A stretch of DNA of 64,000 nt, taken from NCBI GenBank assembly GCA_021776055.1, contig JAJFGP010000067.1, positions 1-64,000 on the forward strand. The letters are read 5' to 3'. This stretch comes from Kiloniellaceae bacterium (GTDB lineage Bacteria; Pseudomonadota; Alphaproteobacteria; Kiloniellales; J153). The notes under the pieces are model-generated. The model had not been told where the DNA came from and ran no database searches. It saw only the letters and a program-made list of their open reading frames with translations. Positions 13,264-51,361 of this stretch are shown one piece after another (position 1 is the stretch's first letter; each line of letters starts with the position of its first letter). Both the position numbers and the translations under genes were made by a program.

Positions 13264-14265
13264 TCACGCGTACCGCAGCCGCTGCCCGATGCCCAGGCGC
13301 TGGGCCTTTTCCAGCATGGCGGCGCCAAGGGCGATGTCGGAGAGCGACAGGCCGCGATGCCAGAAGAGGATTGTTTCATCGTCGCTTTCCCGCCCCGGCC
13401 GGTCGCCGGCGATGATCTGGCCAAGCTCGCCGTGCAAGGTTTGCTCGCTCAGCTTACCGGCCTCCACATGGGCGCGCAGCGAGCCGAACTTGCCGCCCTT
13501 GCATTGACCCCAGTCGTCAACCACCACCTTGTCCATAACATCGGTGAGCGATAACTCCACCGCGCTCATGGTGCCATAGGGGATCACCAGATTGCCGGGG
13601 GCCACCCAGGCTGTCTTGAACAGCGGCGCCGGCGCCTCCAGGCGCGAGGCTTCCACCTGAATGTGAGCGCCGTTGAGGCACGCCTCCCAGGTATCAACGG
13701 CCCGCACCGGCTTACCCAGGTCATCGCTCAAGCGGGCGGCAAACGGATCGCGGCTTTCCGGTCGTCGCGAATGGATGCGAATCTCAGCGAAATCGAAGAG
13801 GTGATCGAGCAAGCGCACGTTCCAATAAGCCGTGCCGCGCGCGCCCACATGGCCGAGCACGCTGGCCCCCTTGCGCGCCAAATACTTGGCCCCAAGCGCG
13901 GTGATGGCACCCGTACGCATCTCGGTGATTGCCGTAGCATCGAGCAGCGCCAGCGGCATACCGGTGCGCGGATCGAAAAGTGTGAGCAGCGCCATCTCCG
14001 ACGGCAGGTCCTGTTGATAGTTGTCGAGGTAGTCGCCGACCACCTTGACCCCCGCCACACCCAACGGCGCCACATAGCCGCGCAACACATTGAAATGACC
14101 TCGAAACGCCGGATCGGGCTCCAGGTGGACGCGCGGTTCGATGACCGTCTCCCCCTGGCCCTGTGCACGCAGACCGGCCTCGACCGCATCGAGAATCTCG
14201 CTGTCGGTCATGGCCAAGGTCGCAATGTCTGGCCCGGAAAGATAGGTAAAATGGATTTCGCGCAT
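13264..14265 (-). CDS. Ornithine cyclodeaminase / mu-crystallin family protein
   Basis: 333 residues. NAD(P)-binding family signatures include MALLTLFDPRTGMPLALLDA, ITEMRTGAITALGAKYLA and a Rossmann segment ASVLGHVGARGTAYWNV. Family members deaminate or reduce amino and imino acids (ornithine cyclodeaminase, alanine dehydrogenase, ketimine reductase). The Rossmann motif GHVGARGTA departs from the usual GxGxQA. The start at 14265 (MREIHFTYLSG) is four bases after the hutF stop, so it is translated from the hutF message and probably belongs to the HutC regulon. A direct role in histidine breakdown is inferred only from the position. Confidence 0.8.
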   Translation of the reverse strand: MREIHFTYLSGPDIATLAMTDSEILDAVEAGLRAQGQGETVIEPRVHLEPDPAFRGHFNVLRGYVAPLGVAGVKVVGDYLDNYQQDLPSEMALLTLFDPRTGMPLALLDATAITEMRTGAITALGAKYLARKGASVLGHVGARGTAYWNVRLLDHLFDFAEIRIHSRRPESRDPFAARLSDDLGKPVRAVDTWEACLNGAHIQVEASRLEAPAPLFKTAWVAPGNLVIPYGTMSAVELSLTDVMDKVVVDDWGQCKGGKFGSLRAHVEAGKLSEQTLHGELGQIIAGDRPGRESDDETILFWHRGLSLSDIALGAAMLEKAQRLGIGQRLRYA

Positions 14266-14269
14266 GGAC

Positions 14270-15652
14270 CTAATCCAGCAGTTCGTCCATGGCCGCCTTG
14301 AAGGCGGCGAAGATCTTGTTCTCATGCGGATGGCGGCCGTTCTGCACGACCCAACGACCGCCGGCCATCACCGCGCGCACCGGGTTCGCGTTACCGGCAA
14401 AGATCAGGGAATCCAAGAGCACGTCATCATCCCGGCCATAGAGCGCCGGGCTGTCGTCATCGAGCACCAGGAGATCGGCCCGGCAGCCGGGCGCCAGCCG
14501 CCCGATGGGGCGAGCCAGGGCCTGGGCGCCACCGGCAAGAGCACGGCGGAATAGCAAAGCGCCCACCGACGGGGCCTCCTCTCCACCGGCCAGCAGGTTG
14601 CGCTGCTTGTGGGTCAACCGCTGGCCGTATTCCAGCCAGCGCAGTTCCTCGATCGGGCTGATTGAGATGTGACTGTCGGAGCCAATGCCAAACGCGCCAC
14701 CCTCCGCCAAATAGTCGGGCGCGGGAAACACGCCGTCACCCAGATTGGCCTCGGTGGTCGGACAGAGGCCGGCGACCGCACCGCTGGCGGCCAGACGCGC
14801 CGCCTCCTCATCGGTGATATGGGTGGCGTGCACCAGGCACCAGCGCGGATCGACCGGCGCGTTTTGCAACAGCCATTCGACCGGGCGGGCGCCGCGCCAT
14901 TCGATGCAGTCTTGGACTTCCTTGCCCTGCTCGGCGACGTGAATATGGATCGGCGCCTGATTATCCATAGCGTGCATCTCGGCAACCGCGGCTGCCAACG
15001 TATCGGCGGTCACCGCCCGCAGGCTATGCGGTGCTAGACCGACAGCAACCTGCGGATCGGCCGCCGTATCGGTGCGCACGGCCCGAATAATCGACAACAG
15101 ATGGTCCGGCTCGTTCAAAAAGCGGCGCTGCCCCTCGCCCGCCGGTTGGCCGCCAAAACCGCCGTAGCCATAGAGCACCGGCAGCAAGGTCATGCCGATG
15201 CCGGTATCTGTTGCCGCCGCCACCACGCGCCGGGCCATCTCGGCGGGATCGCTGTAGGGACGGCCATCCGGGTCGTGATGCAGGTAGTGAAACTCGCCCA
15301 CCGCCGTGTAGCCAGCCTTGAGCATCTCCACATAAAGCTGGGCGGCAATGGCCTGCACATGCTCGGGCCGCAGGCGGCGAACGAAGCCATACATCACCTC
15401 GCGCCAGGTCCAAAAGCTATCGCCCGTGGGACCGGCGCGTTCGGCCAAGCCCGCCATGGCCCGCTGGAAGGCGTGGCTGTGCAGGTTCGGCATGCCCGGT
15501 AGGACGGTGCCACCAGCGCGCTTGGCTTTACCAGGCGCCACGTTCGGCGTAACCGCCGTAAGCTCGCCAGTATCTGAAATGGCAAAGACAACGTCGCGCG
15601 CCCAGCCGTCAGGCAAAAGAGCACGTTTGGCAAACAGTCGGGTTTCTGGCAC
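14270..15652 (-). CDS. hutF: Formimidoylglutamate deiminase
   Basis: Converts N-formimino-L-glutamate to N-formyl-L-glutamate and ammonia, the first half of the two-step HutF/HutG branch of histidine degradation. 460 residues in the amidohydrolase fold. The metal-binding NLHSHAFQRA is at about 57-65, HIHVAEQ mid-protein, and GIGSDSHISISP supplies the last metal Asp. I place the start at the GTG at 15652 (VPETRLFAKRALLPDGWA), since the longer track start at 15796 would overlap the divergent hutI. The promoter shares an intergenic region with hutI containing a HutC-type box. Confidence 0.93.
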   Translation of the reverse strand: MPETRLFAKRALLPDGWARDVVFAISDTGELTAVTPNVAPGKAKRAGGTVLPGMPNLHSHAFQRAMAGLAERAGPTGDSFWTWREVMYGFVRRLRPEHVQAIAAQLYVEMLKAGYTAVGEFHYLHHDPDGRPYSDPAEMARRVVAAATDTGIGMTLLPVLYGYGGFGGQPAGEGQRRFLNEPDHLLSIIRAVRTDTAADPQVAVGLAPHSLRAVTADTLAAAVAEMHAMDNQAPIHIHVAEQGKEVQDCIEWRGARPVEWLLQNAPVDPRWCLVHATHITDEEAARLAASGAVAGLCPTTEANLGDGVFPAPDYLAEGGAFGIGSDSHISISPIEELRWLEYGQRLTHKQRNLLAGGEEAPSVGALLFRRALAGGAQALARPIGRLAPGCRADLLVLDDDSPALYGRDDDVLLDSLIFAGNANPVRAVMAGGRWVVQNGRHPHENKIFAAFKAAMDELLD

Positions 15653-15720
15653 GGGTTTCTGACTCGAGGAGCAGGCTCGGTTGCAGGTTTCAGATGGCGA
15701 GCTTATGACGTATGACTGGA

Positions 15721-15734
15721 CTTGTATAGGCAAC
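15721..15734. promoter_or_regulatory. HutC-type operator between hutF and hutI
   Basis: CTTGTATAGGCAAC, a slightly degenerate copy of the CTTGTATAGACAAG palindrome found perfect upstream of hutH and in inverted form upstream of hutC. It is centred between the two divergent hut genes. Confidence 0.75.
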
Positions 15735-15773
15735 TGCACACTGAAGACACAATCGTGTGGGAAGCGTTCTGGC

Positions 15774-16994
15774 ATGTGGGATGCGATCTGGCTCAACGGC
15801 CGCCTGGCGACGATGGTTGAGGGTAGTGTCCCTTACGGCGCTATCGACGATGCGGTTATCGCCACGGAGGATGGGCGTATCGCCTGGCTGGGCCGGCGCG
15901 GCGATTTAGCGGGTGAACCGCACACGCTAGCGCGGGACGTTCACGACCTGGCCGGTCGTTGGCTGACCCCCGGCCTCATCGACTGCCACACCCATCTTGT
16001 CTACGGCGGCGACCGGGCGCGCGAGTTCGCGCAGCGTCTGGAAGGCGCCAGCTATGCGGAGATTGCCCGTGCCGGCGGCGGCATCGTTTCCACCGTGGCG
16101 GCCACGCGGGCCGCGGATGAGGAGACGCTGTTCGCCGCGGCCCGCCGCCGCCTGTCGGCGCTGCTCGCCGAGGGTGTGACGACCGTCGAGGTCAAGTCGG
16201 GCTACGGCCTGAACCTGGAAGGCGAACTGAAGCAGCTTCGCGTCGCCCGGCGTCTTGGCACCGAGATGCCGGTGACCGTACGCACAACCTTTCTCGGCGC
16301 GCACGCCTTGCCCCCCGAATTCGCCGACCGCGCGGATGCCTACATCGACGCGGTGGTGGCCATGATACCAGAGGTGAAGGCTTCCGGCCTGGCCGATGCG
16401 GTCGATGCCTTTTGCGAAGGCATTGGCTTTACGCCCGAACAAACGGCGCGCGTCTTCGCGGCGGCCACCGAACAGGGTTTGCCGGTCAAGCTACACGCGG
16501 ATCAGTTGTCCGACTTGGGCGGGGCCGCCTTGGCGGCGGGGCACAGCGCCTTGTCCGCCGATCATCTGGAATACACCAGCAACGACGGTGTGGCCGCCAT
16601 GGCGGCCGCCGGCACAGTGGCGGTGCTTCTGCCCGGTGCCTTTTACTTCTTACGCGAGACCAAGCTGCCACCCATCGGCGCCTTGCGTGCCGCCGGTGTG
16701 CCCATGGCGATCGCCACCGATTGCAATCCGGGCAGCGCCCCGCTGACGTCGCTGTTGCTGGTCCTGAACATGGCCTGCACCCTGTTCCGCCTGACACCCG
16801 AAGAAGCGCTGACCGGCATCACCCGCCATGCGGCGCGGGCGCTGGGTTTGAGCGACCGGTGCGGCATGCTCGAGGTCGGCAAGGCGGCCGACTTCGCCAT
16901 CTGGGACATCGACGACCCGGCCGAGCTGGCCTATCGCATCGGCTTCAACCCCCTTGCATATGCGGTCAAGGGCGGCGCCATCCTATCCAGCTGA
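15774..16994 (+). CDS. hutI: Imidazolonepropionase
   Basis: Hydrolyses 4-imidazolone-5-propionate to N-formimino-glutamate, the third step of histidine degradation. 406 residues, the usual length. Metal ligands are in DCHTH (His 72 and 74), with the downstream [27 protein letters not shown] and [10 protein letters not shown] typical of HutI. The track starts at 15681, but the family start [11 protein letters not shown] at 15774 leaves room for the HutC box at 15721. It is followed after 28 bases by a cNMP-binding-domain gene on the same strand. Confidence 0.95.
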
Positions 16995-17022
16995 GTACAT
17001 GTAGAGATCAGGGGAAAACCTC

Positions 17023-17715
17023 ATGACCCCCATGCCACTTTTCGGCGGCGAACTGTTGACGCAGCTTCTGGTCCATGCCGGCTTCCTGCTTACGGCCGGG
17101 GCCTATCTGGTGCGCGAGATTTTGTGGCTGCGCGCCCTGGCCATTGCCGCCAACTTGAGCGTTGCCGCCGCCGCCTACCGCAGCGACCCGCTGGCGCATT
17201 GGGACATCATTGCCTGGACCGGTGCTTTCGTCGTCATCAATCTGGGACATAGTGCCTGGCTGCTTTACGAGCGACACCTGGCGCGGTTGACAGAAGACGA
17301 ACGCCGGCTCGCCGATACGACCTTTCGCGCCCTCGATTCGGTCATCGTGCGCCGGTTGCTGCGGCGCGGGACTTCACGCACATTCTCGGAAACCGACTGC
17401 ATCGTCCGCCAGGGTGTGCCGCTGGATCACCTACTCACCATCGTCGAGGGCGAAGCAGCCGTACTACTCGGCGGGCGCATCGTCGCCCGTCTCAAGACTG
17501 GCGATTTCATCGGCGAGATCGGCTTTCTCTCGGCGGATATGGCAACCGCCACCGTGATGGCGACCACCGCGGTCCGATGCCTGGCCTGGCCGGCCGACGA
17601 TTTGCGTCAGCGCCTGGAACGACACCCGGACCTGCAAACCATCGTCCACGCCGCCATCGGCCGCGACCTGGCAGCCAAGACCGCCGCGCACAACCTCACG
17701 CTCTCGCAGGTCTAA
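17023..17715 (+). CDS. Membrane protein with cyclic-nucleotide-binding domain (Popeye-like layout)
   Basis: 230 residues. Two or three hydrophobic helices occupy about residues 8-80 (LLVHAGFLLTAGAYL, ILWLRALAIAANLSVAAAA, AWTGAFVVINLGHSAWLL). A cNMP-binding beta-roll lies at about 110-215 (ETDCIVRQGVPLDHLLTIVEGEAAVLLGG..GDFIGEIGFLS). The membrane-plus-cNMP arrangement recalls Popeye-domain proteins. The usual phosphate-binding cassette (GE..(L)..R.A) is only partly recognisable, so ligand binding is uncertain. It is likely transcribed with hutI (28-base gap, GGGGAAAA upstream of the ATG). Its stop overlaps the stop of convergent hutG by three to four bases. Confidence 0.75.
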   Translation: MTPMPLFGGELLTQLLVHAGFLLTAGAYLVREILWLRALAIAANLSVAAAAYRSDPLAHWDIIAWTGAFVVINLGHSAWLLYERHLARLTEDERRLADTTFRALDSVIVRRLLRRGTSRTFSETDCIVRQGVPLDHLLTIVEGEAAVLLGGRIVARLKTGDFIGEIGFLSADMATATVMATTAVRCLAWPADDLRQRLERHPDLQTIVHAAIGRDLAAKTAAHNLTLSQV

Positions 17716-18509
17716 GAACGCCCGCCGATCCATTCGAGGGACGCGGCCAACAGGTCACGCAGCAGTGGCCGGATACCGTCTGCCAAGTCCTCGCGAAAAC
17801 CGTAGGGCGCGCCCTCGTCCATGTAGGTGATCTGGCTGAGCTCAAGTTGCACCGCATGCACACCCGCCGCCGGGTCGCCGTTGGCGCGGGTGATGTAGCC
17901 GCCCTTGAATCGGCCATCGACCACGTGCGTGTATTCGGGCGACTCCGCCGCGACGGCGCTGAGACGGCTGAGTAACTCCGGATCGGTGCTCGTACCGCCG
18001 CCACTGCCGAAATTCAGATCCGGCAGGCGACCCTCGAAGAAGCGCGGCACCCGGCTGCGGATCGAATGCGCGTCCCATAGCAGGGCCCGGCCGTGCTGCG
18101 ATTTCAGGGCCGCTAGCTCGGCACGCAGCCGCTCGTGATAAGGCTGCCAGATAGCTTCCCGCCGCGTCGCGATCTCGGCATGATCCGGCTCAGTGCCATC
18201 CAGGTAGATAGACGCTTCGTCGAAGGTGGTGGCCGGGCAAAGACCGGTGTTGTTGGCCCCCGGATAAAGCGATGCGCCATCCGGGGGCCGGTTCAAATCT
18301 ATGACATAACGCGAATGAGTGGCGGCAATCGTGCTGGCGCCAAGCTCACCAAGAAAATCGTAGAGCCGGTCCACATGCCAATCGGTATCCGGCAAAGCTT
18401 GCGCCGCCGGGCTCAACCGCGCGGCAACGTCCGGGGGCACGTAAGTGCCCACGTGCGGCATGGAAACCAGTAGCGGTGTATCGCCCGCATGAAAACGAAA
18501 TGGATCCAT
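17712..18509 (-). CDS. hutG: N-formylglutamate deformylase
   Basis: Hydrolyses N-formyl-L-glutamate to glutamate and formate, the last step after HutF. 265 residues, normal for the bacterial family. Signature segments are LLVSMPHVGTYVPP, DTDWHVDRLYDF, NRPPDGASLYPG, DAHSIRS and RFKGGYITR. The track start at 18737 is too long. The ATG at 18509 begins MDPFRFHAGDTPLLVS and overlaps the stop of the upstream small membrane protein as TAATG, indicating translational coupling. Confidence 0.93.
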   Translation of the reverse strand: MDPFRFHAGDTPLLVSMPHVGTYVPPDVAARLSPAAQALPDTDWHVDRLYDFLGELGASTIAATHSRYVIDLNRPPDGASLYPGANNTGLCPATTFDEASIYLDGTEPDHAEIATRREAIWQPYHERLRAELAALKSQHGRALLWDAHSIRSRVPRFFEGRLPDLNFGSGGGTSTDPELLSRLSAVAAESPEYTHVVDGRFKGGYITRANGDPAAGVHAVQLELSQITYMDEGAPYGFREDLADGIRPLLRDLLAASLEWIGGRS

Positions 18510-18856
18510 TAGCGCCAACCCGCCAACGTCGAGATTCCGAGACCGAGAAAGAAAATTCCCATCGCCGGCCATTGCAACCGCCGCCAGCCCGACATCTCTT
18601 TCTGGAGGCGGACGTTCAGTAGGCGGATTAGCGGGAGTCCCACATTGCCCGCCCCATCCTTGCTTGGACGCGATTCCGGCAGAAGCCCGACGATGAAGGA
18701 TAACAGACCAAGGGCGATTAAACCCCAGGCACCCCAACGGAACGCCTCAACGCATGGTTCGCCATCAACACACGCTGCCTCTTGCGCCCAGGCCGGTAGA
18801 GCAAACGCCGAGGACAACGCGGCCAACCATAATCTGTTCCGTAAGACGCAAAACAC
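18509..18856 (-). CDS. Small membrane protein of unknown function, coupled to hutG
   Basis: 115 residues. An N-terminal signal-like helix (LWLAALSSAFALPAWAQ, with a possible cleavage after AWA), then two hydrophobic segments (WGLIALGLLSFIVGLLP and MGIFFLGLGISTLAG). I do not recognise a family. It precedes hutG with a TAATG overlap, so it should be co-translated with it. Two cysteines follow the signal (ACVDGEPC) and might form a disulphide. The role is not inferable. Confidence 0.6.
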   Translation of the reverse strand: MFCVLRNRLWLAALSSAFALPAWAQEAACVDGEPCVEAFRWGAWGLIALGLLSFIVGLLPESRPSKDGAGNVGLPLIRLLNVRLQKEMSGWRRLQWPAMGIFFLGLGISTLAGWR

Positions 18857-18956
18857 GGGCGGGTTTTTCCTCTGTCAATCAACCAGCAGCCTAGGATACA
18901 GCGCTGGCGGGAGCAATCGCGCCCTCCTCCGCTAGCCGCTGGCCAGTGCTCGGGAA

Positions 18957-18970
18957 CTTGTCTATACAAG
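18957..18970. promoter_or_regulatory. HutC-type operator upstream of hutC
   Basis: CTTGTCTATACAAG is the exact reverse complement of CTTGTATAGACAAG found upstream of hutH. It lies 48 bases before the hutC ATG and in the divergent region facing the small membrane protein/hutG pair, so it could serve both directions, including autoregulation. Confidence 0.8.
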
Positions 18971-19018
18971 TGCAATTATCGCCCGCATGGGCGACCCTGC
19001 CAAGGGCACCGGACGATC

Positions 19019-19756
19019 ATGACACGGCGCATGGACCGCAGCGGCATACCGCTCTATAAGCAGGTGAAAGAGCACATCGCCACCCGCATCCTCGCTGGCG
19101 ACTGGCCTCAGGGACAGCGGTTGCCCTCGGAGAATCAGTTGACCGGCGATTTGGGCGTCAGCCGTATGACCGCGCATCGGGCCCTGCGCGAGCTGACCGG
19201 CGAGGGCTGGCTTACGCGGATACAAGGGGCCGGCACCTTCGTCGCTGAATCCAAGGCGCAATCGGCGCTCATGGAGATCCGCAACATTCGCGAGGAGATT
19301 GCCGAGCGCGGGCGTACCCATTCCTGCGAAGTCGTGTTGCTGACCCAGGAAAAGGCCAATGCCGAGGTAGCCCATGTCTTGGAACTCAACGCTGGCGCGG
19401 ATGTGTATCACTCCGTGCTTGTGCACAAGGAAAACAAACACCCGATCCAGGTCGAGGACCGGCACGTCAGCCCGACCTTTGCGCCCAACTACCTGAAGCA
19501 GGACTTCATGCGGACGACCGCCTTCGAGTACCTCGGCCAACTCGGCCCCCTGGACGCGGCCGAACATATTATCGAAGCTGTCCTGCCCAACGAGGTGAAC
19601 CGCCGCCTGCTCCGCTGCCAGGCCGACGAACCCTGTCTGCTGCTGACCCGGCGAACGTGGTCGAACGGCCAGGTGGTATCGCGTGTCCGGCAGATGTATC
19701 CGGGGTCGCGCTACCGACTGGCCGGCCGGCAAGAATACAACCGAGCCACGCACTGA
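19019..19756 (+). CDS. hutC: HutC, GntR-family repressor of histidine utilisation
   Basis: 245 residues. N-terminal winged helix-turn-helix (about 10-78, [20 protein letters not shown] and [25 protein letters not shown]) and a C-terminal UTRA effector domain (about 95-235) that binds urocanate in studied HutC proteins. It is followed after 11 bases by hutU. The palindrome upstream of its ATG, repeated before hutI/hutF and hutH, fits an autoregulated repressor whose regulon spans all three loci. Confidence 0.93.
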
Positions 19757-19767
19757 GGACCCCAACC

Positions 19768-21441
<1,674 letters not shown>

Positions 21442-22310: not shown

Positions 22311-23054
22311 TCACGTCGAATTTACCAACGCGCGCACGGCCTGTAGGCCAATAGGGGCGCCGCCGAACTCCGTCATGGCATCGCGCAAACACCCCCACAG
22401 GTACGCGGCGGACGCACTGTCGGCTAGCAAGTGGTAGGCCGGTAGCCGGCCTTTATCGTCACGGATGACGGTGCCGTTGAGACGGGCGATCGAGGTCTGC
22501 GCTATACACCCGGGCGCGAACTTGGCCGGGCGAAGATCGACGCCGCAAACCTTGGCGAACATGGCCGGGCTGTCCGCGCCCGTCAGCAGGAACCAGGCGT
22601 GAGTATCGGCGCGCGGTACCGGGAAGCCGCGTGGCGTCTTCGGCGGTATCGGCGCCTTGGCCCAAGCCGCAGCCAACCGTGCCGGCAAATCGTCCTCTCC
22701 GGCCAAGGCCCCCCCAGGAATAGCCCCAAGAATCAGCACCTCCCCCGGCGCCAGGCGCGCCGCCAGGGCACCGCCATCCTGTGTGACCGCTTGGTTGCTC
22801 TCCGGCGGCACCGCCACCTTCTGTTTCGCCAGCCATTCGGCCGTGCCCGCGCCTTTGAAACCAACCCGCGCCAACGGCGACAGATCGGCAAGACCGAGGC
22901 GCCGGGCCGCGGCCTCCTCTCCCGCCGGGTCGCCAAAGTGGGTGGCGATGGCCGCGCCGCCCTCGCCCTCAAAATGCGCGCCCGCCGACAGCAGTTCGCG
23001 GTAGACGAAGCTGCGGCGCAAATGATCGGTCGGTTGCGGAGCGCCGGTAGCCAC
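22311..23054 (-). CDS. soxG: Sarcosine oxidase gamma-type subunit (first set)
   Basis: 247 residues of the SoxG/GcvT-fold gamma subunit, last gene of the soxB-soxD-soxA-soxG operon. Characteristic segments are LADLSPLARVGFKGAGTAEWL, GFPVPRADTHAWFLLTG and RPAKFAPGCIAQTSIARLNGTVIRD. It starts at a GTG (23054) four bases after the soxA stop. In characterised heterotetramers gamma is structural. A possible weak terminator (CGACTC/GAGTCG) lies just downstream, near 22279-22300. Confidence 0.88.
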   Translation of the reverse strand: MATGAPQPTDHLRRSFVYRELLSAGAHFEGEGGAAIATHFGDPAGEEAAARRLGLADLSPLARVGFKGAGTAEWLAKQKVAVPPESNQAVTQDGGALAARLAPGEVLILGAIPGGALAGEDDLPARLAAAWAKAPIPPKTPRGFPVPRADTHAWFLLTGADSPAMFAKVCGVDLRPAKFAPGCIAQTSIARLNGTVIRDDKGRLPAYHLLADSASAAYLWGCLRDAMTEFGGAPIGLQAVRALVNST

Positions 23055-23057
23055 GAT

Positions 23058-25964
23058 CTACATCTCCTGCCGCTGATTATCGGGATCGTAGAACGGCAGC
23101 GGCACGACCTCGGCGCCAAGTTTGCGACCGCTGTCCAATTTGATTTCGATGGGCTTGCCGACCTCGGCATCGTCCGGATGCACGTAGGCCAGACCGATCA
23201 CCTTCTCCAGGTTTGGCGAGCGCACCACCGACGTTACGAAGCCGGCGATGGTATTCCCACGCAGTACCAAATTCGACTCTCCCGGCATCTCGCCCACCGG
23301 CCCCTCTATGGCGAAGCCGGCCAATTTGCGTGTCGTTGGCTGGCGCAGGCGCAACTCGATGGAGCGGCCGCCAACGAAGAATGGCTTTTTCTTGGCGATC
23401 GCCCAAGCCATGTCCACTTCGTGCGGGTGGCTCATGGCGTCGGTATCTTGGCCGATGATGATGTGCCCCTTCTCCAAACGCAGAACCCGCTGCGCCTCGA
23501 CACCGAAGGGACGGATACCCTGCGCGGCGCCGGCGTCCATCATCGCATCCCATAGCGCCTCGCCCTGGCTTGCCGGCACGTGCACCTCGTAACCCAGTTC
23601 ACCGACAAAGCCGACGCGAATGAAGCGGGCCGGAATTCCGGCGCAGAGCCCTTCGCGCACACCCATATACGGAAATGCCTCGGCTCCCAGGTCCACGCCC
23701 TCGGTCACCGCCGCCAGGGCGTCGCGCGACCGCGGTCCGGCAATGTTCACCCCGGCATAGGCAGCGGTCACGTTGGCCACATCCACGTCCAGGCGCCAAC
23801 GGGCATTCCACCACAGCATGCTTAGATAGATGCGGTCGACACCGCCGGTGGTCGCCGTCACATAGAAATGCTCGGGCCCCAAACGGCAAGCCACACCATC
23901 GTCGATGATCGTGCCGGCCTCGTTGGTCATCAGCACATACCGGGCGCGGCCGATGGGCTGCTTCTTGTAGGCGAATGTGTACATGCGCTCGAGGAACTCG
24001 GCCGCGTCCGGGCCGCGCACCTCCAGGCCACCCAGAGTCGACACATCGACAAGAGCCAGACCATTACGCACCGCCAGCGCCTCTTCCCGGATACAGGCTT
24101 CGCGCTGCGCCGGCGCGCCGTAGTAGGCCGGGCGCCACCACAGGCCGGCCGGCATCATCTTCGCCCCGGCTTCCAGGTGCCGGTGGTGCATGGCCGTATA
24201 GCGTTCCGGGTTGAAAGCGCGGCCGGCCAACACGCCCAACTTTTCGCCGGTGAACGGCGGGCGAGCGGTGGTCACGCCGGTCTGCGCCACCGTGCGGCCA
24301 CTAGCCTTGGCGATAAGGCGCGCGGTGCTCAACGCCGAGTGACGGCCCTGGCTCGGCCCCATGCCGACCGTGGAGAACCGCTTGACCAATTCGAGCTCAG
24401 AATATCCCTCGGCGGCGCTGCTTAGGATGTCGCGAACTTGCAGGTCTTCATCGAAATCGACGAAGTCCTTGCCCTTGGGGTGCGGGTAGATCGGCCAGGG
24501 AAAATTCGGGCTCTCGCCGGTTTCCGCCGGCACGCTTGGTTCAGCGCCAGCACCACCGGCAGCCCGCCACCCGGCACGACGGCCGTCCGCCAGCACCGCT
24601 TCCAGGTCGTGCCGGCCGTTGACCGACCCGGCCAGGTGCAGATGCTCCGGCAACCCATCGATGGAGAACATCGCCGCCGCATCGTCGTAACCCAAGCGGC
24701 CGCCCGCCTGCAGGGCCAACTGATAGGTCGGCGTATAGCCAACGCACATGGCGATGGTATCGCAAGCAACCCGCTCGCCCTGCCGCGCCACCTCGCCGGG
24801 GCCGACGATGCTGTCGATCACGGCGCCGACGGTGGATCGCTTGCCGGGACCCGCAACCGCCTGGCTCACCGTATGACCAGAGAGAACGCGCACGCCACGG
24901 GCGATCACCTCATCGATTGCCGGATCGGGCGGCGGTGCCTGCCGCTGATCGATGACCGCGGCAATCTCGACCCCCGCGTCCAGCAGATCCAGAGCCACCA
25001 GATATCCGTGATTGTTGCCGGCAAGCACGAGAGCGCTGCGGCCCGGACGCACGCCATACAGACGGATCAGGCGCTGCGCCGCCGAGCCCATCATCACGCC
25101 CGGCAGATCGTTGTTGCGGAAAATGGCCGGCTGCTCCAGCGCCCCGGCGGCAAGCACAACCTCGCCGGCACGCACCTTGTGCAGGCGGTTGCCGCGAATG
25201 ACCGGCAGCCAATTGTCGGCGAACCAGCCGTTGCAGACCGCATTGGTCATCACCGTGATGTTCGGCGCCGCCTCGACCGCCGCAACCAGCTCGGTACACT
25301 GCGCCGCCGCCTGTTCGCCCGCTGCGTCGAAGCGAGCGTAAGTCAACGCCCCGCCCAGAATCGGGAACTCCTCGACCAGCAACACCTCGGCGCCCGACTG
25401 TGCCGCCGATAGGGCCGCCGACAGTCCCGCCGGGCCACCGCCGATCACCGCCACGTCGTAGAAGCCGTATGCCTTGTCAAAATAACCGTGCGGCGCGTTG
25501 GTATCGACACGACCCAGGCCGGCCGAACGACGGACGATCGGCTCCCAGAAGCGTTGCCAAATCCCGCGCGGGCGATAGAACGCGCGGTAATAGAATCCGG
25601 CCGGCATGAAACGGCCGAGCCGGCCCATGAAGGCCGCGCGGTCGCGCTCCAGGCTGCCCGATACATTCTGCGGCACCACCGCCAGGCCATCGCTGATCGG
25701 CGCGCGATCGGCCAGAACGTTCGGCTCGGCGCCGATCTGCACCAATGTGTTCGCATCCTGTCCCGCCATGGTCAGGATGCCGCGCGGCCGATGGTATTTG
25801 AACGAACGCGAGAGCACGCGCACGCCATTCGCGGCCAGGGCACTGGCAATGGTATCGCCGGCGAAACCCTCATACCCCCGGCCTTCGAAGGTGAAGGCCA
25901 CGCGCTTAGACCGGTCGACCAAGGCCCCCGACGGCGCCGGCAGACGTAGGGTCTCGGCGCTCAC
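23058..25964 (-). CDS. soxA: Sarcosine oxidase alpha-type subunit (first set)
   Basis: 968 residues, the usual alpha-subunit size. Domains in order: an N-terminal ferredoxin-like domain without cluster cysteines (about 20-110, SFKYHRPRGILTMAGQDANT), an NAD-binding Rossmann domain (VIGGGPAGLSAALSAAQSG near 175), a middle region, and a C-terminal GcvT-like folate-binding domain (about 590-960). It transfers the methyl-derived one-carbon unit from an N-methyl amino acid to tetrahydrofolate. The start overlaps the soxD stop as ATGA. The substrate may differ from sarcosine, because the partner SoxD departs from the canonical zinc form. Confidence 0.92.
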   Translation of the reverse strand: MSAETLRLPAPSGALVDRSKRVAFTFEGRGYEGFAGDTIASALAANGVRVLSRSFKYHRPRGILTMAGQDANTLVQIGAEPNVLADRAPISDGLAVVPQNVSGSLERDRAAFMGRLGRFMPAGFYYRAFYRPRGIWQRFWEPIVRRSAGLGRVDTNAPHGYFDKAYGFYDVAVIGGGPAGLSAALSAAQSGAEVLLVEEFPILGGALTYARFDAAGEQAAAQCTELVAAVEAAPNITVMTNAVCNGWFADNWLPVIRGNRLHKVRAGEVVLAAGALEQPAIFRNNDLPGVMMGSAAQRLIRLYGVRPGRSALVLAGNNHGYLVALDLLDAGVEIAAVIDQRQAPPPDPAIDEVIARGVRVLSGHTVSQAVAGPGKRSTVGAVIDSIVGPGEVARQGERVACDTIAMCVGYTPTYQLALQAGGRLGYDDAAAMFSIDGLPEHLHLAGSVNGRHDLEAVLADGRRAGWRAAGGAGAEPSVPAETGESPNFPWPIYPHPKGKDFVDFDEDLQVRDILSSAAEGYSELELVKRFSTVGMGPSQGRHSALSTARLIAKASGRTVAQTGVTTARPPFTGEKLGVLAGRAFNPERYTAMHHRHLEAGAKMMPAGLWWRPAYYGAPAQREACIREEALAVRNGLALVDVSTLGGLEVRGPDAAEFLERMYTFAYKKQPIGRARYVLMTNEAGTIIDDGVACRLGPEHFYVTATTGGVDRIYLSMLWWNARWRLDVDVANVTAAYAGVNIAGPRSRDALAAVTEGVDLGAEAFPYMGVREGLCAGIPARFIRVGFVGELGYEVHVPASQGEALWDAMMDAGAAQGIRPFGVEAQRVLRLEKGHIIIGQDTDAMSHPHEVDMAWAIAKKKPFFVGGRSIELRLRQPTTRKLAGFAIEGPVGEMPGESNLVLRGNTIAGFVTSVVRSPNLEKVIGLAYVHPDDAEVGKPIEIKLDSGRKLGAEVVPLPFYDPDNQRQEM

Positions 25965-26257
25965 GCGGTCCCGTCCTTGGGCGCGAACTCTACCCGTTGG
26001 TTGTAGACCTCACTGGCCGGATAAGTGCGCAGAATTTCATCGGTAACCGTGTTGCGTTCGGCGATGAACCAGTAGCTGGTCGGCACATGGCACCACCATT
26101 CGCGCACCACACCGGCGGTGTTGTTGGCGTACCAGACATGCTCGGCCCAGGCGGCATCATCCGCCGTGGTCGGCTCGGGCATGTCGGCCACCTCGCCGAA
26201 ACAGGAGAACTCCGAGATGTTGCGCGGACCGTTCAGGGGGCAAGGCATGATCTTCAT
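25961..26257 (-). CDS. soxD: Sarcosine oxidase delta-type subunit lacking zinc ligands (first set)
   Basis: 98 residues from the ATG at 26257 (the longer track start is rejected). The N-terminus is MKIMPCPLNGPRNISEF. Canonical SoxD has CPxCG and a later HxHGC to bind zinc; here the second Cys is Asn and the later Cys is absent (WWCHVPTSYWF). The canonical paralogue at 51061 keeps all four ligands. The CPLNGPRNISEF type occurs as a recognised SoxD subfamily, so this is a subgroup trait rather than a fresh mutation (family knowledge, not checked). Overlaps soxA by ATGA and follows soxB by 10 bases. Confidence 0.88.
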   Translation of the reverse strand: MKIMPCPLNGPRNISEFSCFGEVADMPEPTTADDAAWAEHVWYANNTAGVVREWWCHVPTSYWFIAERNTVTDEILRTYPASEVYNQRVEFAPKDGTA

Positions 26258-26267
26258 CGCCGCACCT

Positions 26268-27500
26268 CTAGTGACTCGCCGCCGTGGCGCCCATTTCGTT
26301 CGCCAGATCGTAGGTGGCAAAACGATCCAGGCGGAAGGGCTTCAGGATGTCGGGCACGCGCCCGGTCGCCACGGTCTCGGCCATGTACTTGCCTGAGACC
26401 GGCGTCGCCTTGAAGCCCCAAGTGCCCCAGCCCGCGTCCAACCAGTAGTTTTGTAGCGGGCTTTCGCCCATGACCGGGCTGTAATCCGGCGTCATGTCGG
26501 TCAGGCCGGCCCACTGGCGCAACATCTTCACCTCGGCCAGGAAGGGGAACATCTCCAGGGTGTGGGCGATCAGGCTTTCTTTCAGTTCCAGGGTCGAGCG
26601 GGTCGAATAAAGCTCGTACGGATCGGAGCCGCCGCCGATCACCAACTCGCCGCGCGCCGTCTGCGATACATAGGCATGCAGCGCCGCCGAGCTGACCAGC
26701 GGATCGAGGAACGGCTTCAGCGGTTGTGTAACCATGGCTTGCAACGGGAAACTCCGAATCGGCAAGCGGAAGCCGGCCATGGCGGCTAGCTGCGAGCTCA
26801 TCCCCGCCACCGCCTGGACCACATGGCCGCAGGCGATGACCCCGCGCGTGGTCTCGACACCGACGGCCTTGCCTTTGTCGCGGCGGATGCCGGTCACCTC
26901 GGTGCGTTGGTGCAACTCGACGCCCATCTCGGCGGCGCGCGCCGCATAAGCCCAGGCCACGGCGTCGTGCCGGGCCGTCCCCCCGTCCCGGTGCCAGAGG
27001 CCGCCGAGAATGGGGTAACGCACGTCATCGTCCATATGTAGGCAGGGCACGATCTCGCGAATTTGCTTGCGGTCGACCATCTCGGAGCGAACGCCCAGAT
27101 GCTTGTTCACCTCGGCGCGCAGGCGAAAGGTGCGCAAGGAAGCATCCGAGTGGGCCAGGGTAAGCTGGCCACGCTGGGAATACATGATGTTGTAACCGAG
27201 GTCGTTCGAGAAGCGGGTGAACAGCTCCACCCCTTCTTTATAGAAACGCACCGATTCCGGGGTGATGTAGTTGGAGCGGATAACCGCCGTATTGCGCGCC
27301 GTATTGCCGCCGCCCAGATACCCCCGATCGAGCACACAGACATTGCGCACGCCCCAGTGCTTGGCCAAGTGGTAAGCCGTCGCCAGGCCATGCCCGCCGC
27401 CGCCGACGATGACCACATCGTAGGATGGCTTGAGCTCGCTGGGCGGCGGCAGATCGCGCCGGCCGCCCCTTACGGCGTGTCTGAGCAGTCCAATTGGCAT
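26268..27500 (-). CDS. soxB: Sarcosine oxidase beta-type subunit (first set)
   Basis: 410 residues. The FAD-binding [18 protein letters not shown] begins near residue 33, a flavin-site RSNYITPES follows, and TARHDAVAW contains the His that carries covalent FMN in studied SoxB proteins. It holds the amine-oxidising flavins of the heterotetramer. The start at the ATG 27500 (MPIGLLRHAV) is preferred to the upstream TTG. First gene of the operon; the palindromic element at 27524-27766 lies immediately upstream, so the promoter must sit within or beyond that element. Confidence 0.9.
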   Translation of the reverse strand: MPIGLLRHAVRGGRRDLPPPSELKPSYDVVIVGGGGHGLATAYHLAKHWGVRNVCVLDRGYLGGGNTARNTAVIRSNYITPESVRFYKEGVELFTRFSNDLGYNIMYSQRGQLTLAHSDASLRTFRLRAEVNKHLGVRSEMVDRKQIREIVPCLHMDDDVRYPILGGLWHRDGGTARHDAVAWAYAARAAEMGVELHQRTEVTGIRRDKGKAVGVETTRGVIACGHVVQAVAGMSSQLAAMAGFRLPIRSFPLQAMVTQPLKPFLDPLVSSAALHAYVSQTARGELVIGGGSDPYELYSTRSTLELKESLIAHTLEMFPFLAEVKMLRQWAGLTDMTPDYSPVMGESPLQNYWLDAGWGTWGFKATPVSGKYMAETVATGRVPDILKPFRLDRFATYDLANEMGATAASH

Positions 27501-27523
27501 GGCTTCGCACGTTAATACCAAAT

Positions 27524-27766: not shown

Positions 27767-27995
27767 AAGGGGTTTTAGGGCGCGGTGGGCGGCGGCTGCC
27801 CGGCAATCGACACGTTCCCGCCAAAACACGCCAGAGCCCATGTTCCCGTCAATGCCGAGTCGCCGCAAGGGGCACATTCCTTAACGGATAGCCACTTGGC
27901 ACCAAAATGGGTATGTTGCCCCAGAGGCACGTGGCGCACGGCCCTGGGCCGTGCCAATGCACGCGAGCCGCCAACAAACGAGAGGGAGAGCATCA
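27767..27995. promoter_or_regulatory. Leader/promoter region of the amino-acid ABC transporter
   Basis: No gene. It contains a perfect 8-bp hairpin GCACGGCC-CTG-GGCCGTGC at 27936-27954, 42 bases before the transporter start. This is a possible mRNA leader structure. I do not recognise a riboswitch class, and the promoter itself could not be picked out. Confidence 0.35.
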
Positions 27996-28811
27996 ATGCT
28001 ACGCAAGATATTAGGTCTTACCGTCGCAGCCGGTTTCGCCGCCACACTGGCGGCCGCCCCGGCCTTGGCGGATTCCATCGACGACATCAAGGCACGCGGT
28101 ACGCTGATCGTTGGCGTAAAGGCCGACTATAAGCCGTACGGTTTCCGCGATCCGTCGGGCGCCATCATCGGCATCGAGCCGGAATTGGCTCAGGATGTGG
28201 CCGACAAGCTCGGCGTCAAGCTGGAAATGGTACCGGTCGTCTCCTCGAACCGGATGCAGTTCCTGGAGCAGGGCAAGGTCGATTTGATGATCGCCACCAT
28301 GACCGACCGCCCGGACCGGCGCAAAGTGGTGCAGATTGTCGATCCGAACTACTACTCCTCCGGCACCAACGTAATGTCCCAGAAGGCCGCCGGCCTCAAG
28401 AAGTGGGAAGATCTCAAGGGTAAGCCGGTCTGCGGCATCCAGGGCGCCTTCTACAATAAGAAGACGCAGGAGGAATTCGGCGCCAAGATCGTTGCTTTCA
28501 AGGGCACCGCCGAGGTTTACACGGCCCTGAAGCAAGGCAGCTGTGTCGGGTTCGTCTACGATGATTCAGCGCTTATCGCGCAACTTCAAGACACGGCACA
28601 GTGGGGCGACTATGAGATGGGCCTACCGACCATCGACGATGCCCCTTGGGGTTTGGCCGTGCGCTTGGGCGAGGCCAAGTTCGCCAAGCTCATGTCCGAC
28701 ATGATCGTCGGCTGGCACAAGAGCGGCCGCATTCTTGAGTTGGAGACGAAGAACGGCGTCGCCAACACGCCGTTCGCCAAGGCGATGCACGAAAAATACA
28801 AGAATATGTAA
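27996..28811 (+). CDS. Polar amino-acid ABC transporter, periplasmic binding protein
   Basis: 271 residues from the ATG at 27996 (GAGGGAGAG upstream). Sec signal peptide of about 25 residues (ILGLTVAAGFAATLAAAPALA). The mature protein is a family-3 solute-binding protein: ARGTLIVGVKADYKPYGFRDPSG, GIEPELAQDVADKLGV and DLMIATMTDRPDRR. It captures an amino acid or amino-acid-like compound. First gene of a four-gene transporter operon, separated from the permease by a strong hairpin that may favour its higher expression. The ligand is not inferable, but the flanking N-methyl-amino-acid oxidases make a methylated amino acid plausible. Confidence 0.92.
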   Translation: MLRKILGLTVAAGFAATLAAAPALADSIDDIKARGTLIVGVKADYKPYGFRDPSGAIIGIEPELAQDVADKLGVKLEMVPVVSSNRMQFLEQGKVDLMIATMTDRPDRRKVVQIVDPNYYSSGTNVMSQKAAGLKKWEDLKGKPVCGIQGAFYNKKTQEEFGAKIVAFKGTAEVYTALKQGSCVGFVYDDSALIAQLQDTAQWGDYEMGLPTIDDAPWGLAVRLGEAKFAKLMSDMIVGWHKSGRILELETKNGVANTPFAKAMHEKYKNM

Positions 28812-28819
28812 CGGCGGTT

Positions 28820-28859
28820 TTGGTGCGGTGCGAGGCTCGACTGCCTCGCGCCGCACCAA
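28820..28859 (+). other. 17-bp intercistronic hairpin after the binding-protein gene
   Basis: TTGGTGCGGTGCGAGGC, loop TCGACT, GCCTCGCGCCGCACCAA; one mismatch in 17 bp. It lies between the binding-protein and first permease genes. Such hairpins often stabilise the upstream mRNA or partly terminate transcription. Confidence 0.65.
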
Positions 28860-28886
28860 CCATTACTGCTGCGATGGGGGGCGGCC

Positions 28887-29633
28887 GTGGAGGCATTTTT
28901 TGTCTGGTTCCAATGGCTCTATGACGAAACCGGCGTAAACCTCACCTATTTCTACGACTCCTTCGATCGTGGGCGCATGATCGGCGGATTCTTCACGACC
29001 ATCTGGCTGTCCGTGGTCTGCCTGTTCTTCTCCACCATCATCGGGATCGTCGGCGCCTGGCTGCAGGGATCGCGCCTCGTCTGGACCCGGCGGATCGTCC
29101 AAGGCTACATCCAGTTCTTCCGCAACACCCCGCCGCTCGTGCAGATGTATTTCTTCTTCTTTGCCCTGGGCAACCTGCTGCCGCGGGTGAAGAACGAGTT
29201 CGGCTTCATGGAGCCAATGCTCGGCAATTTCACCTGGGCGGCGATCTCGCTGTCGTTCTTCGCCGGTGCCTTCAATGTGGAGATCTTTCGCTCGGGCATC
29301 GAGGCGGTACCTGAATCGACCCGCGAGGCGGCCGAAGCCCTCGGCTATAACCGGTTGCAATCGTACATGTATGTGGTGCTGCCGTTGGCCTTCCGGGTCT
29401 GCCTGCCGGCGCTCAACAACAACCTGGTGAATCTGGTCAAGACGACCACCCTGGCCTATGCCATCGCCGTGCCCGAGTTGCTGTATGTCTCCAACCAGAT
29501 CTGGTCCGACAGCGTCAATGTGCCGGAGATGATGGTCACGTTGCTGATCTTGTACGTCGCCCTGGTCGGCCTTCTCGTCTGGGCGATGCACCGCTGGGAG
29601 CGAGCCATTCGCGTGCCGGGATACGGCATATGA
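28887..29633 (+). CDS. Amino-acid ABC transporter permease 1
   Basis: 248 residues, HisM/GlnP-type inner-membrane permease with about five transmembrane segments. The conserved cytoplasmic loop EAVPESTREAAEALGYNRLQ contacts the ATPase. The start is a GTG at 28887 after a GGGGGG stretch. The end overlaps the next permease start as ATGA, so the two are translated together and probably form a heterodimer. Confidence 0.92.
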   Translation: MEAFFVWFQWLYDETGVNLTYFYDSFDRGRMIGGFFTTIWLSVVCLFFSTIIGIVGAWLQGSRLVWTRRIVQGYIQFFRNTPPLVQMYFFFFALGNLLPRVKNEFGFMEPMLGNFTWAAISLSFFAGAFNVEIFRSGIEAVPESTREAAEALGYNRLQSYMYVVLPLAFRVCLPALNNNLVNLVKTTTLAYAIAVPELLYVSNQIWSDSVNVPEMMVTLLILYVALVGLLVWAMHRWERAIRVPGYGI

Positions 29634-30493
29634 GCGGCACCGATCTCCCGGTTCTGTTGCCCGCCGCCCAGCGGCTTACCGAGCGCGCACGCCGGGAGCG
29701 CGAGGTCGGCGGGCCAATCCCGCGCCTACAGGCCCGGCATGGCGTATGGCTTGCGGTCATTCTGATTTTTTCAGCCGGCGCCGCCGGCGCTCAGGCCGGT
29801 GCCGAGCAAGAATCTGTCCTGTCCATCATGCTGAAATGGACACCGCTTCTGCTCAAGGGTTTCGTCTTCAATCTAGCGATCAGCTTTCTGGCCATGGTGG
29901 GCGGCACCATCGTCGGCGCCTTGCTGGGCATTTGGCAGATTTCGCTGCTGCCGCCGGTGCGTGCGGGGTCGTGGCTGGTCACCCAGTTCTTCCGCAATGC
30001 CCCATGGCTGGTGCTGTTGTTTTTCTGCATGTTCCTGTTGCCCTTCCAGGTGGAGGTCTTTGGGCTGGTCATCCCATTACCCGACTGGATCAAGGCCACG
30101 TTCGGCCTGGCCCTGCCGGTGATGGCCAATGTCTCGGAGATTGTCCGCGGCGCCATTCAATCGATCCCCTCGGGACAGTGGGAATCGTCGGAATCCCTTG
30201 CCTTCAACCGGCGGCAAACGCTGTGGCAGATTATCATGCCGCAGTGCATAAAGCGCATGTTGCCGCCGTGGATGAACCTGTATGCCATCCTGACCATGGC
30301 AACCGTCCTGGCCTCGGTGGTCGGCGTCTCCGAGGTGATGACGTTGACCGGCCAGGTGTTGAGCGCCGAGGGCGGGCGCACCGATCTCTTGGTGCCGTTC
30401 TACAGCTATATCCTGCTTTGGTTCTTCATCTACTGCTATCCGATCGCGCGATGGACGGTGCACCTCGAGCGCCACTTCGCGGTCAAGACATGA
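29630..30493 (+). CDS. Amino-acid ABC transporter permease 2
   Basis: 287 residues, HisQ/GlnP-type permease. An unusually long hydrophilic N-terminal extension of about 35 residues precedes the first hydrophobic segment ([20 protein letters not shown]). The ATPase-contact loop [20 protein letters not shown] is visible. The ATG overlaps the previous stop. It is followed after 22 bases by the ATP-binding gene. Confidence 0.92.
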
Positions 30494-30515
30494 AACCGGG
30501 GAGGCCCGCAACGCC

Positions 30516-31274
30516 ATGACCGCCACGCAAGCCTGGACCACCGATCAACCCATCGTCCGCATCGCGGACGTCTACAAAGCCTTTGGCGCGGTCGATGTGC
30601 TCAATGGCGTTTCCCTGAACGTCATGAAGGGCGAGGTCATTTGCATCATTGGTCCGTCGGGGTCGGGAAAATCGACCCTCTTGCGCTGCATCAACGCTCT
30701 TGTGCCCATCAACAAGGGCTCGATCCAGGTCGAAGGTCAGGAGGTGCACGACCCGAAACTGGATAAACTGGAGCTACGCAAAAAGGTCGGCATGGTCTTC
30801 CAGCAGTACAATCTGTTCCCGCACAAGACGGCCGTACAGAACGTGATGATGGCGCCGATCACCGTGCTGAAGCAGGACAAGACGGAAGTCGAAGCGCGCG
30901 CCTACGCGCTGCTCAAGAAAGTCCGCTTGGAAGGCAAAGAGCACAGCTACCCGGGCGAATTATCCGGCGGCCAGCAGCAGCGGGTAGCCATCGCCCGCTC
31001 CCTGGCCATGAACCCGGACGTGATGCTGTTCGACGAAGTCACCGCCGCCCTCGACCCGGAGACCGTCAAGGAAGTCCTGGTTACCATCCGCGAGCTAGCC
31101 GAGGAAGGCATGACCTGCCTTCTGGTCACCCACGAGATGGGCTTTGCCCGCGAGGTGGCCGATCACATGTACTTCACAGACCGGGGTGTCATCGTCGAGC
31201 AAGGACCCCCGAAAGAGTTCTTCGCCAACCCCAAGGACCCGCGCACCCAGGAATTCCTAGGGCAGATTCTTTAA
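30516..31274 (+). CDS. Amino-acid ABC transporter ATP-binding protein (GlnQ/HisP type)
   Basis: 252 residues. Walker [10 protein letters not shown] (46-54), Q-loop [16 protein letters not shown], signature LSGGQQQR (about 148), Walker [13 protein letters not shown] and the switch His in LVTHEMGFA. It energises the preceding two permeases. Its last 18 bases overlap the 3' end of the convergent AllA-like gene. Confidence 0.96.
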
Positions 31275-33160: not shown

Positions 33161-33325
33161 GGCAAAACCATAAGGCGGACCGCCGCGAGCCAGCAAGCGG
33201 CAATACCACCACATCACGCATTCAGTCGGATTGCCGCCAGCGGCGGTCGGTTGCGCGCTATGGTGGCGCGTGGCGCCCGCCTATCGTGCGGCGATTGTCA
33301 CCGGGATCGCGGGGAGATACGCGCC

Positions 33326-34669
33326 ATGGCTATGCCTACACAAGCCAAGTACGTCATCATCGGTGCCGGCATCCACGGCCTGTCCACCGCCTGGCACCTG
33401 GCGGAACGGTTGCGCGCCAGCGGCCGAGGCGACGGCACCGACATTTTGATCATCGACAAGGCCGGCATCGCCGCAGGCGCTAGCGGCATCGCCTGCGGCG
33501 TGGTTCGCAACAACTACTTCCAGCCGGCCATGCGCGAGCTGATGGCCCAATGTGTCGAGGTCTGGGAAAGCGACCCGAAAGCCTTCAGCTATCACCCGGT
33601 CGGCTACATGCAGATATCATCCGAGACCATGCGCGAAGACGTGGCCTCGATTCACGCTCAGCAGCAGGATATCGGCTACGAGTCCGTCTTCGTCGACGGG
33701 GCCGCAGAGTCGATGACCTACATGAAGGGCATCTTCGACGACTGGCAGGCCAAGGGCATTACCTCGGTTCTGCACGAGAAAAAAGGCGGCTATGCCAACA
33801 ACACCGCGTCCATGTACGGCCTGGCCAAGAAAGCCGAGGATTTGGGCGTGCGCATCCTCACCGGCGTCGAAGTCACCGGCTTCCGCGCCGATCACGGCTC
33901 CGCCGCCGTAGCCGCGGTGGAGACCACGCGTGGCACCATCGCCTGTGAGCAAGTGGTGATCGCCGTGGGCCCTTGGGTGAATACGCTGTGGACCAAGCTG
34001 GATCTGCCCAAAACCGTCTCCATCAAGGACTCGCAGGGGCGCCTGCACGACGATATTCCCATGTGGCGCTATTGGGCGCTGGAGGAAGGCACGTTGGGTG
34101 TCGATCCGAACCTACAGAAGACCAACGACGGCCAGATGCCGCCGGTCATCCACGTGGATACGGACGCGCCGTTGCACTCCGACGTGGACGATTCGCTGAT
34201 CACCGAGGAGATGTGGGGAATTTACTACAAGCCGGACTTCAATTTCGGCGGCATTCAGGGCGGTGCCATGCCGATCAAGGTGGAGACCCCGGTCGATCAG
34301 GTAGCCATCGACCCTTACGGCCCGGACTCGCCCGAATTCATCGTCGACGATAACTTCGCCCACATGTGGTGCTCGGCCCTGGCCTTCTGCCAGAAGCGCT
34401 TCGAGGGCCAGATCAAGCACTACAAGAAGGAGCCGTCGGGTGGTCTGGGCTGCTTTACGCCGGATTCATTCCCCGTCTTCGACCGCTTTCGCGACAACGT
34501 GACGGTGATCGCGGATTCGAACCACGGCTACAAGATGATCGGTGTCGGCAAGCTGGTCGCCGAAGAATTGCTGGGCGGCAAAAGCGCCCTGCTCGAACCG
34601 TTCCGCTTCGCCCGCTACGCCGAAGGCCGCCTACACCCAACGAGCAACAGCCCCTTCCCGTGGAGCTGA
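33326..34669 (+). CDS. FAD-dependent oxidoreductase, DAO family (2)
   Basis: 447 residues from the ATG at 33326 (GGGGAG upstream); a second in-frame ATG follows two codons later. FAD-binding motif VIIGAGIHGLSTAWHLAE, flavin-site GASGIACGVVRNNYFQPAMRE and C-terminal GYKMIGVGKLVAEEL. An insertion of about 60 residues in the middle (WRYWALEEGTLGVDPNLQKT onward) makes it longer than classical SoxB-like oxidases. The substrate is unknown, but amine oxidation is likely. Divergent from the preceding oxidase with a 165-base gap. Confidence 0.85.
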   Translation: MAMPTQAKYVIIGAGIHGLSTAWHLAERLRASGRGDGTDILIIDKAGIAAGASGIACGVVRNNYFQPAMRELMAQCVEVWESDPKAFSYHPVGYMQISSETMREDVASIHAQQQDIGYESVFVDGAAESMTYMKGIFDDWQAKGITSVLHEKKGGYANNTASMYGLAKKAEDLGVRILTGVEVTGFRADHGSAAVAAVETTRGTIACEQVVIAVGPWVNTLWTKLDLPKTVSIKDSQGRLHDDIPMWRYWALEEGTLGVDPNLQKTNDGQMPPVIHVDTDAPLHSDVDDSLITEEMWGIYYKPDFNFGGIQGGAMPIKVETPVDQVAIDPYGPDSPEFIVDDNFAHMWCSALAFCQKRFEGQIKHYKKEPSGGLGCFTPDSFPVFDRFRDNVTVIADSNHGYKMIGVGKLVAEELLGGKSALLEPFRFARYAEGRLHPTSNSPFPWS

Positions 34670-51354: not shown

Positions 51355-51361
51355 CGCGGTC

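Follow-up and report, generated by a model that had tools for sequence, protein, structure and literature searches.

The SoxBDAG sarcosine oxidase, represented by the structures PDB 2gag and 1vrq, contains a SoxD-type delta subunit with a zinc-ribbon fold (PMC5906684). A second enzyme, N-methylglutamate dehydrogenase, is encoded by mgdABCD in Methyloversatilis universalis and other methylotrophs, and its predicted products are methylene-tetrahydrofolate (methylene-H4F) and glutamate (PMC5023235). Studies in SAR11 have described two paralogous soxBDAG operons, one of which was proposed to encode N-methylglutamate dehydrogenase, and according to the authors it is unclear which of the two specifies that enzyme and which the sarcosine oxidase (PMC3160333). 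The window analyzed here, a stretch of 64,000 nucleotides from the alphaproteobacterium Kiloniellaceae bacterium (assembly GCA_021776055.1, contig JAJFGP010000067.1), resembles SAR11 in that the source genome possesses two paralogous sets, designated set 1 and set 2 (Table 1).

Comparison with these systems reveals both likenesses and differences. Set 1 and the methylotroph MgdABCD share four subunits, an identical gene order, the flavin His and a folate-transfer domain, and the clade of set 1 resembles the methylotroph systems in its gene linkage to, and genome co-occurrence with, gmaS-mgsABC; set 1 itself, however, is unlinked to gmaS-mgsABC within the window. With SoxBDAG sarcosine oxidase, including set 2, set 1 shares its architecture, operon order and delta fold, but it differs in the absence of the delta zinc quartet, a Gly to Trp change in the beta subunit, placement in a separate clade and scores below the family cut-offs. 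The named Mgd sets of P. aminophilus and Aminobacter fall into another clade, marked by GWCYGGFK and a mostly retained quartet (HLHD in P. aminophilus), and small genomes resembling SAR11 (L209-L217) differ from the source genome in carrying two zinc-containing sets, the Mgs-linked one of which lies in this second N-methylglutamate (NMG) clade. The best reading of these comparisons is that set 1 belongs to a known kind of enzyme and is closest to the N-methylglutamate dehydrogenases. More specifically, set 1 is probably an N-methylglutamate dehydrogenase of the MgdABCD type from a clade lacking the zinc site, with substrate, folate chemistry and absence of metal all deduced from sequence comparison.

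Table 1. Positions of the two SoxBDAG-like sets and of neighboring genes in the window.
Feature	Position	Strand	Remarks
hutF, hutI, hutG, hutC, hutU (left flank)	13264..21441		hutU by family search; others by sequence reading and homology
soxG1 / mgdD-like gamma subunit, divergent	22311..23054	minus	TIGR01375 22 bits, cut-off 144
soxA1 / mgdC-like alpha subunit, 968 aa	23058..25964	minus	TIGR01372 873 bits, cut-off 1164
soxD1 / mgdB-like delta subunit	25961..26257	minus	C6-N9-H57-T60 replacing the Cys-Cys-His-Cys quartet
soxB1 / mgdA-like beta subunit	26268..27521	minus	GGTARHD flavin-attachment His (H185) retained; motif GWGTWGFK
ABC transporter for polar amino acids (ATPase, two permeases and a binding protein at 27951-28811)	27951..31274	plus	divergent from set 1; orthologues adjoin several related SoxBDAG sets
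DAO-family FAD oxidoreductase	33323..34669	plus	orthologues adjoin second GmaS/MgsABC-like cluster and set-1-type complex in L140, L144, L152, L154
hutH (right flank)	37925..39484	plus	
soxB2, canonical beta subunit (GWGTGGFK)	49671..51044	plus	TIGR01373 703 bits, cut-off 529
soxD2, canonical delta subunit, four zinc ligands	51061..51354 (about)	plus	end taken from open frame
soxA2, canonical alpha subunit	51344..54376	plus	TIGR01372 1504 bits, cut-off 1164
Probable soxG2, 207 aa	54369..54992	plus	assigned by position

The set 1 and set 2 operons

Set 1 has the features expected of the family, namely a SoxBDAG-like operon of four genes and the flavin-attachment His. The operon is compact and ordered soxB1-soxD1-soxA1-soxG1, such that soxD1 is the second gene, and its stop codon shares bases with the GTG at which soxA1 begins; translation of soxB1 possibly begins at an internal Met. 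All four subunits score below the NCBIfam cut-offs of TIGR01372-01375, reaching 873 of 1164, 496 of 529, 60 of 117 and 22 of 144 bits. The alpha and beta subunits of set 2, on the other hand, exceed the corresponding cut-offs for SoxA and SoxB. The first start of soxA2 overlaps soxD2, and the true start is probably an internal ATG approximately 18 bases further in. The neighbors of set 2 include glycine-betaine-type corrinoid methyltransferases, a setting in keeping with sarcosine as its substrate. A search with PF04267 identified only these two SoxD genes in the source genome.

Between soxB1 and the ABC transporter lies an element of about 260 bases (27515-27780) resembling a MITE. Its terminal inverted repeats span 41 bases and are imperfect, whereas another inverted repeat inside it, of 21 bases, is perfect. 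The element recurs elsewhere in the genome as five nearly complete copies (86-94% identity), a further one with 78% identity and a number of fragments.

Zinc-ligand positions of the set 1 delta subunit

SoxD1, the 98-residue minus-strand translation of 25961-26257 (MKIMPCPLNGPRNISEFSCFGEV...EWWCHVPTSYWFIAERNT...), is recognized by the SoxD family model PF04267 above its cut-off (E 3.8e-25) and matches chain D of 2gag (E 3e-12). Its predicted model (mean pLDDT 86) matches 2gag D and 1vrq D, with no other significant match, and superimposes on 2gag D with TM values of 0.65/0.69. The zinc quartet of the 2gag delta subunit is what we take to be C6, C9, H59 and C63. In the alignment to 2gag D, C6 is retained and N9 occupies the position of C9, while H57 corresponds to H59 and is retained, and T60 corresponds to C63 beside a deletion of one residue. 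Two of the four zinc ligands are thus lost in SoxD1. The initial annotation, which had noted CPLNG in place of CPxCG and the disappearance of the later Cys in SoxD1, and the presence of C6, C9, H59 and C63 in the set 2 protein, is borne out on both counts by the 2gag D alignment, the recurrence of the pattern in SoxD1 orthologues and the four ligands of SoxD2. The retention of H57 and the near-invariance of N9 and of S/T60 are additional observations.

Chance and sequencing error can be dismissed as sources of this pattern, since CP[LVMI]N...H..[T/S] is seen again in SoxD1 orthologues from dozens of genomes. Among 89 sequences of the zinc-less group, C6 is conserved in 88, N9 in 85, and H57 and S/T60 in all; the single exception at position 6 is an Ala (locus L154). 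Whether such proteins bind zinc or another metal by way of C6, H57 and replacement ligands is a question compatible with any reading of the substrate. The retention of C6 and H57, the almost invariant N9 and S/T60, and the presence of a full quartet in Acidithiobacillus caldus, inside the clade, would all be in keeping with such binding. However, no new invariant Cys or His appears in the 89 sequences, C9 and C63 are never lost singly among the 190 distinct SoxD proteins sampled, and position 6 is Ala in L154. The further Cys residues of SoxD1, C19 and C56, were considered as replacement ligands and rejected, being conserved in just 40 and 47 of the 89 sequences. Metal binding through other residues, a possibility raised in the initial annotation, accordingly appears unlikely. 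Rather, a fixed polar quartet apparently stands in for the zinc knuckles in the SoxD1 clade: the Cys-Asn-His-Ser/Thr residues would probably maintain the delta fold by hydrogen bonds in a metal-free state, and we infer that SoxD1 is metal-free. No relevant paper on an MgdB or SoxD lacking zinc emerged from a search of the literature library, and the loss of the delta zinc site throughout the clade, along with the beta motif characteristic of it, appears to be undescribed.

Three clades of SoxBDAG-like sets

The beta-subunit tree (189 sets), the alpha-subunit tree and the tree of both subunits concatenated, all built without the genetically studied MgdABCD of M. universalis, each resolve three groups. 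Group A, the sarcosine oxidase clade, comprises 80 sets including set 2, all 80 with the zinc quartet, and has the beta motif GWGTGGFK. Group B comprises 21 sets, including MgdABCD of P. aminophilus pAMI6 and that of Aminobacter, in which the quartet is mostly present and the motif is GWCYGGFK. Group C comprises 87 sets, including set 1, and is distributed among alpha-, beta- and gammaproteobacteria and one cyanobacterium; the quartet is absent in 86 of the 87, and the motif is GWGT[W/Y]GFK, with the Gly to Trp/Tyr change in every set. The group C beta subunits share the further fixed residues H177, R290 and D362, and the flavin-attachment His is invariant across all groups (87/87 in group C). 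In the concatenated tree, the group C node (75 sets plus the outlier L040) has a support of 0.957 and a branch of 0.77.

The same partition is evident in the delta subunit. Searching 385 alphaproteobacterial genomes with SoxD1 yielded two peaks: about 30 orthologues, the majority of them 52-70% identical, and, below about 48%, canonical proteins. SoxB1, used as a query against public genomes, retrieved 44 related loci, and every SoxD recovered from them by way of SoxD1 had CP[LVM]NG and no second pair. Altogether, 190 distinct SoxD proteins divide into 98 with C-C-H-C, 85 with C-N-H-T/S and 7 with other losses. Zinc loss is thus a trait of the whole clade and not a peculiarity of the set 1 and set 2 pair.

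Two MgdB variants merit separate mention. The A. caldus protein (L079, 12001-12258) is alone among the sampled sets of the zinc-less clade in having all four zinc ligands. The spacing between its His and Cys (HLPC) falls one residue short of that in sarcosine oxidase, with the loop as in group C, and its quartet may have been either regained or kept from an ancestor. In MgdB of the P. aminophilus type (L298, 30220-30513; L078, 27784-28068) the quartet has been lost independently and reads H, L, H, D (HPLL...HEQGD). Zinc loss was considered as a marker of N-methylglutamate dehydrogenase and rejected: the NMG-linked group B sets (P. aminophilus, Aminobacter and the small genomes) mostly keep the quartet, and the A. 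caldus quartet inside the zinc-less clade contradicts such use as well.

Set 1 neither groups with the canonical sets nor carries GWGTGGFK; it groups instead with sets linked to gmaS-mgsABC, and in both the beta and the alpha tree the two sets of the window branch within separate deep clades; their beta active-site motifs differ as well. The complexes are therefore not recent duplicates, a point on which the phylogeny called for in the initial annotation gives the same answer with beta, alpha and concatenated sequences. The suggestion made there was that the two sets probably differ in assembly or substrate, set 1 using, for example, some N-methyl amino acid in place of sarcosine. As regards a likely non-sarcosine substrate it is strengthened by these separate clades and motifs, and our preference within it is for N-methylglutamate. 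On this evidence set 1 would not be a sarcosine oxidase in the strict sense. That it might yet be a second sarcosine oxidase, with a delta subunit that has shed a dispensable zinc site, finds some encouragement in the shared operon order, flavin-attachment His and folate-domain architecture, and in the P. aminophilus type, where the site was lost too. This proposal is very improbable, however, given the separate deep clade and its GWGTWGFK motif, the sub-threshold scores of all four subunits and the presence of set 2, which already fills the sarcosine role beside the genes for corrinoid glycine-betaine demethylation. As concerns the favored N-methylglutamate dehydrogenase reading, the fact that set 1 does not group with the named MgdABCD of P. 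aminophilus pAMI6, placed in the second NMG-linked clade, counts against it, and no experimental work on a member of group C was found.

Links to N-methylglutamate synthesis and other candidate substrates

Several lines of evidence connect group C with N-methylglutamate. Firstly, gmaS or mgs genes lie within 15 kb of 27 of 83 group C loci and of none of 33 group A loci. Secondly, an A. caldus plasmid carries a complete purU-mgdABC-gmaS-mgsABC-folD cluster, with the entire pathway contiguous, and almost every group C member that genome searches retrieved from beta- and gammaproteobacteria is linked to gmaS-mgsABC. Additionally, an MgsC homologue is present in 30 of 31 alphaproteobacterial genomes with a group C set versus 49 of the 354 without (385 genomes; Fisher p 3e-22, shared ancestry ignored). 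Within the source genome's own order this association is gone (9/15 versus 26/48), and a tie between the set-1-type complex and MgsC was rejected at that level; the relatives L010, L011, L017 and L044 possess the complex and lack MgsC.

The source genome encodes mgsA-mgsB-mgsC-gmaS on contig C92, with no SoxBDAG genes beside them. Because there are just two SoxD genes, the C92 cluster is without SoxBDAG and set 2 fits sarcosine, set 1 is left as the sole free mgd candidate of this genome; and because the clade is tied to gmaS-mgsABC and the genome has those genes, N-methyl-L-glutamate is the best-supported substrate. In the pathway proposed, GmaS and MgsABC from contig C92 would convert methylamine and glutamate to N-methyl-L-glutamate, the flavin site of the set 1 beta subunit would oxidize the N-methyl group, and the alpha subunit, by chemistry extrapolated from the family, would pass the methyl-derived unit to tetrahydrofolate, giving glutamate and methylene-tetrahydrofolate.

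Two GmaS/MgsABC-like clusters are in fact present in the source genome: that on C92 (L162; MgsC 72% identical to A. caldus) is close to known N-methylglutamate synthase, and that on C46 (L163; 55%) is of a more distant type, accompanied in other genomes by an orthologue of the window's DAO-family oxidoreductase. On Acinetobacter plasmids (L076) a group C set lies next to the trigonelline genes tgnABC, with 20 plasmid records containing a SoxD1-type gene and 20 containing MgsC, and on an Aquabacterium plasmid (L301) tgn-like genes are coupled to gmaS-mgsABC, suggesting that trigonelline-derived methylamine is used via the N-methylglutamate pathway on these plasmids. In rhizobial and Ruegeria/Shimia loci (L077, L028, L030-L032, L035, L036, L038, L023, L026) the set-1-type complex is found inside ectoine-uptake clusters composed of ehuABCD together with peptidase, amidase, AspDH and threonine dehydratase genes. 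Ectoine breakdown requires no N-demethylase.

The immediate surroundings of set 1 bring another N-methyl amino acid into consideration (for example N-methylated histidine, or a betaine after partial demethylation), which would be imported by the adjacent ABC transporter and its product passed to the hut pathway or to central metabolism. The transporter, already reported beside set 1 in the initial annotation, recurs beside the sets of several relatives (L003, L010, L044, Paracoccus and Neorhizobium loci). Set 1 sits between hutU, which is convergent with soxG1 across a small hypothetical gene, and hutH, and gene maps of relatives, drawn by tblastn and GC3-weighted gene calling, place hut genes beside the complex in L009, L011, L015, L016 and L197. 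In L010 and L044, whose genomes lack MgsC, the complex is accompanied by the transporter and by a DMGDH-like enzyme, and further members of the clade occur in the ehu clusters or with mttB/DMGDH. Several sox neighbors in the hut-linked relatives, however, are unrelated genes (fasciclin, ion channel, GDSL lipase, FecR, ShlB), so the hut linkage is perhaps merely a shared neighborhood; no paper on degradation of histidine betaine by such enzymes was found, and the source genome has gmaS-mgsABC and no second mgd candidate. A functional hut operon acting on histidine betaine or N-methylhistidine was accordingly kept only as a rival, and a substrate of this kind is possible but clearly the less probable choice. 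A broader version, held equally tentatively, is that the zinc-less clade consists of folate-linked N-methyl-amino-acid demethylases that began as N-methylglutamate dehydrogenases and were re-used, in company with hut genes in the window's order, ehu genes in rhizobia and mttB/DMGDH elsewhere; set 1 would then act on some imported N-methyl amino acid so far unrecognized as a substrate.

Genomes with at least two soxBDAG sets are routinely annotated as encoding several sarcosine oxidases. Taken together, the delta quartet and one beta motif suffice to assign the sampled sets to three clades by sequence (GWGTGGFK plus zinc; GWCYGGFK, with zinc in most; GWGT[W/Y]GFK, no zinc), a sorting that makes the question of substrate directly testable. 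Finally, the clade-wide loss of a zinc site within a solved fold provides a natural test of the role of zinc.
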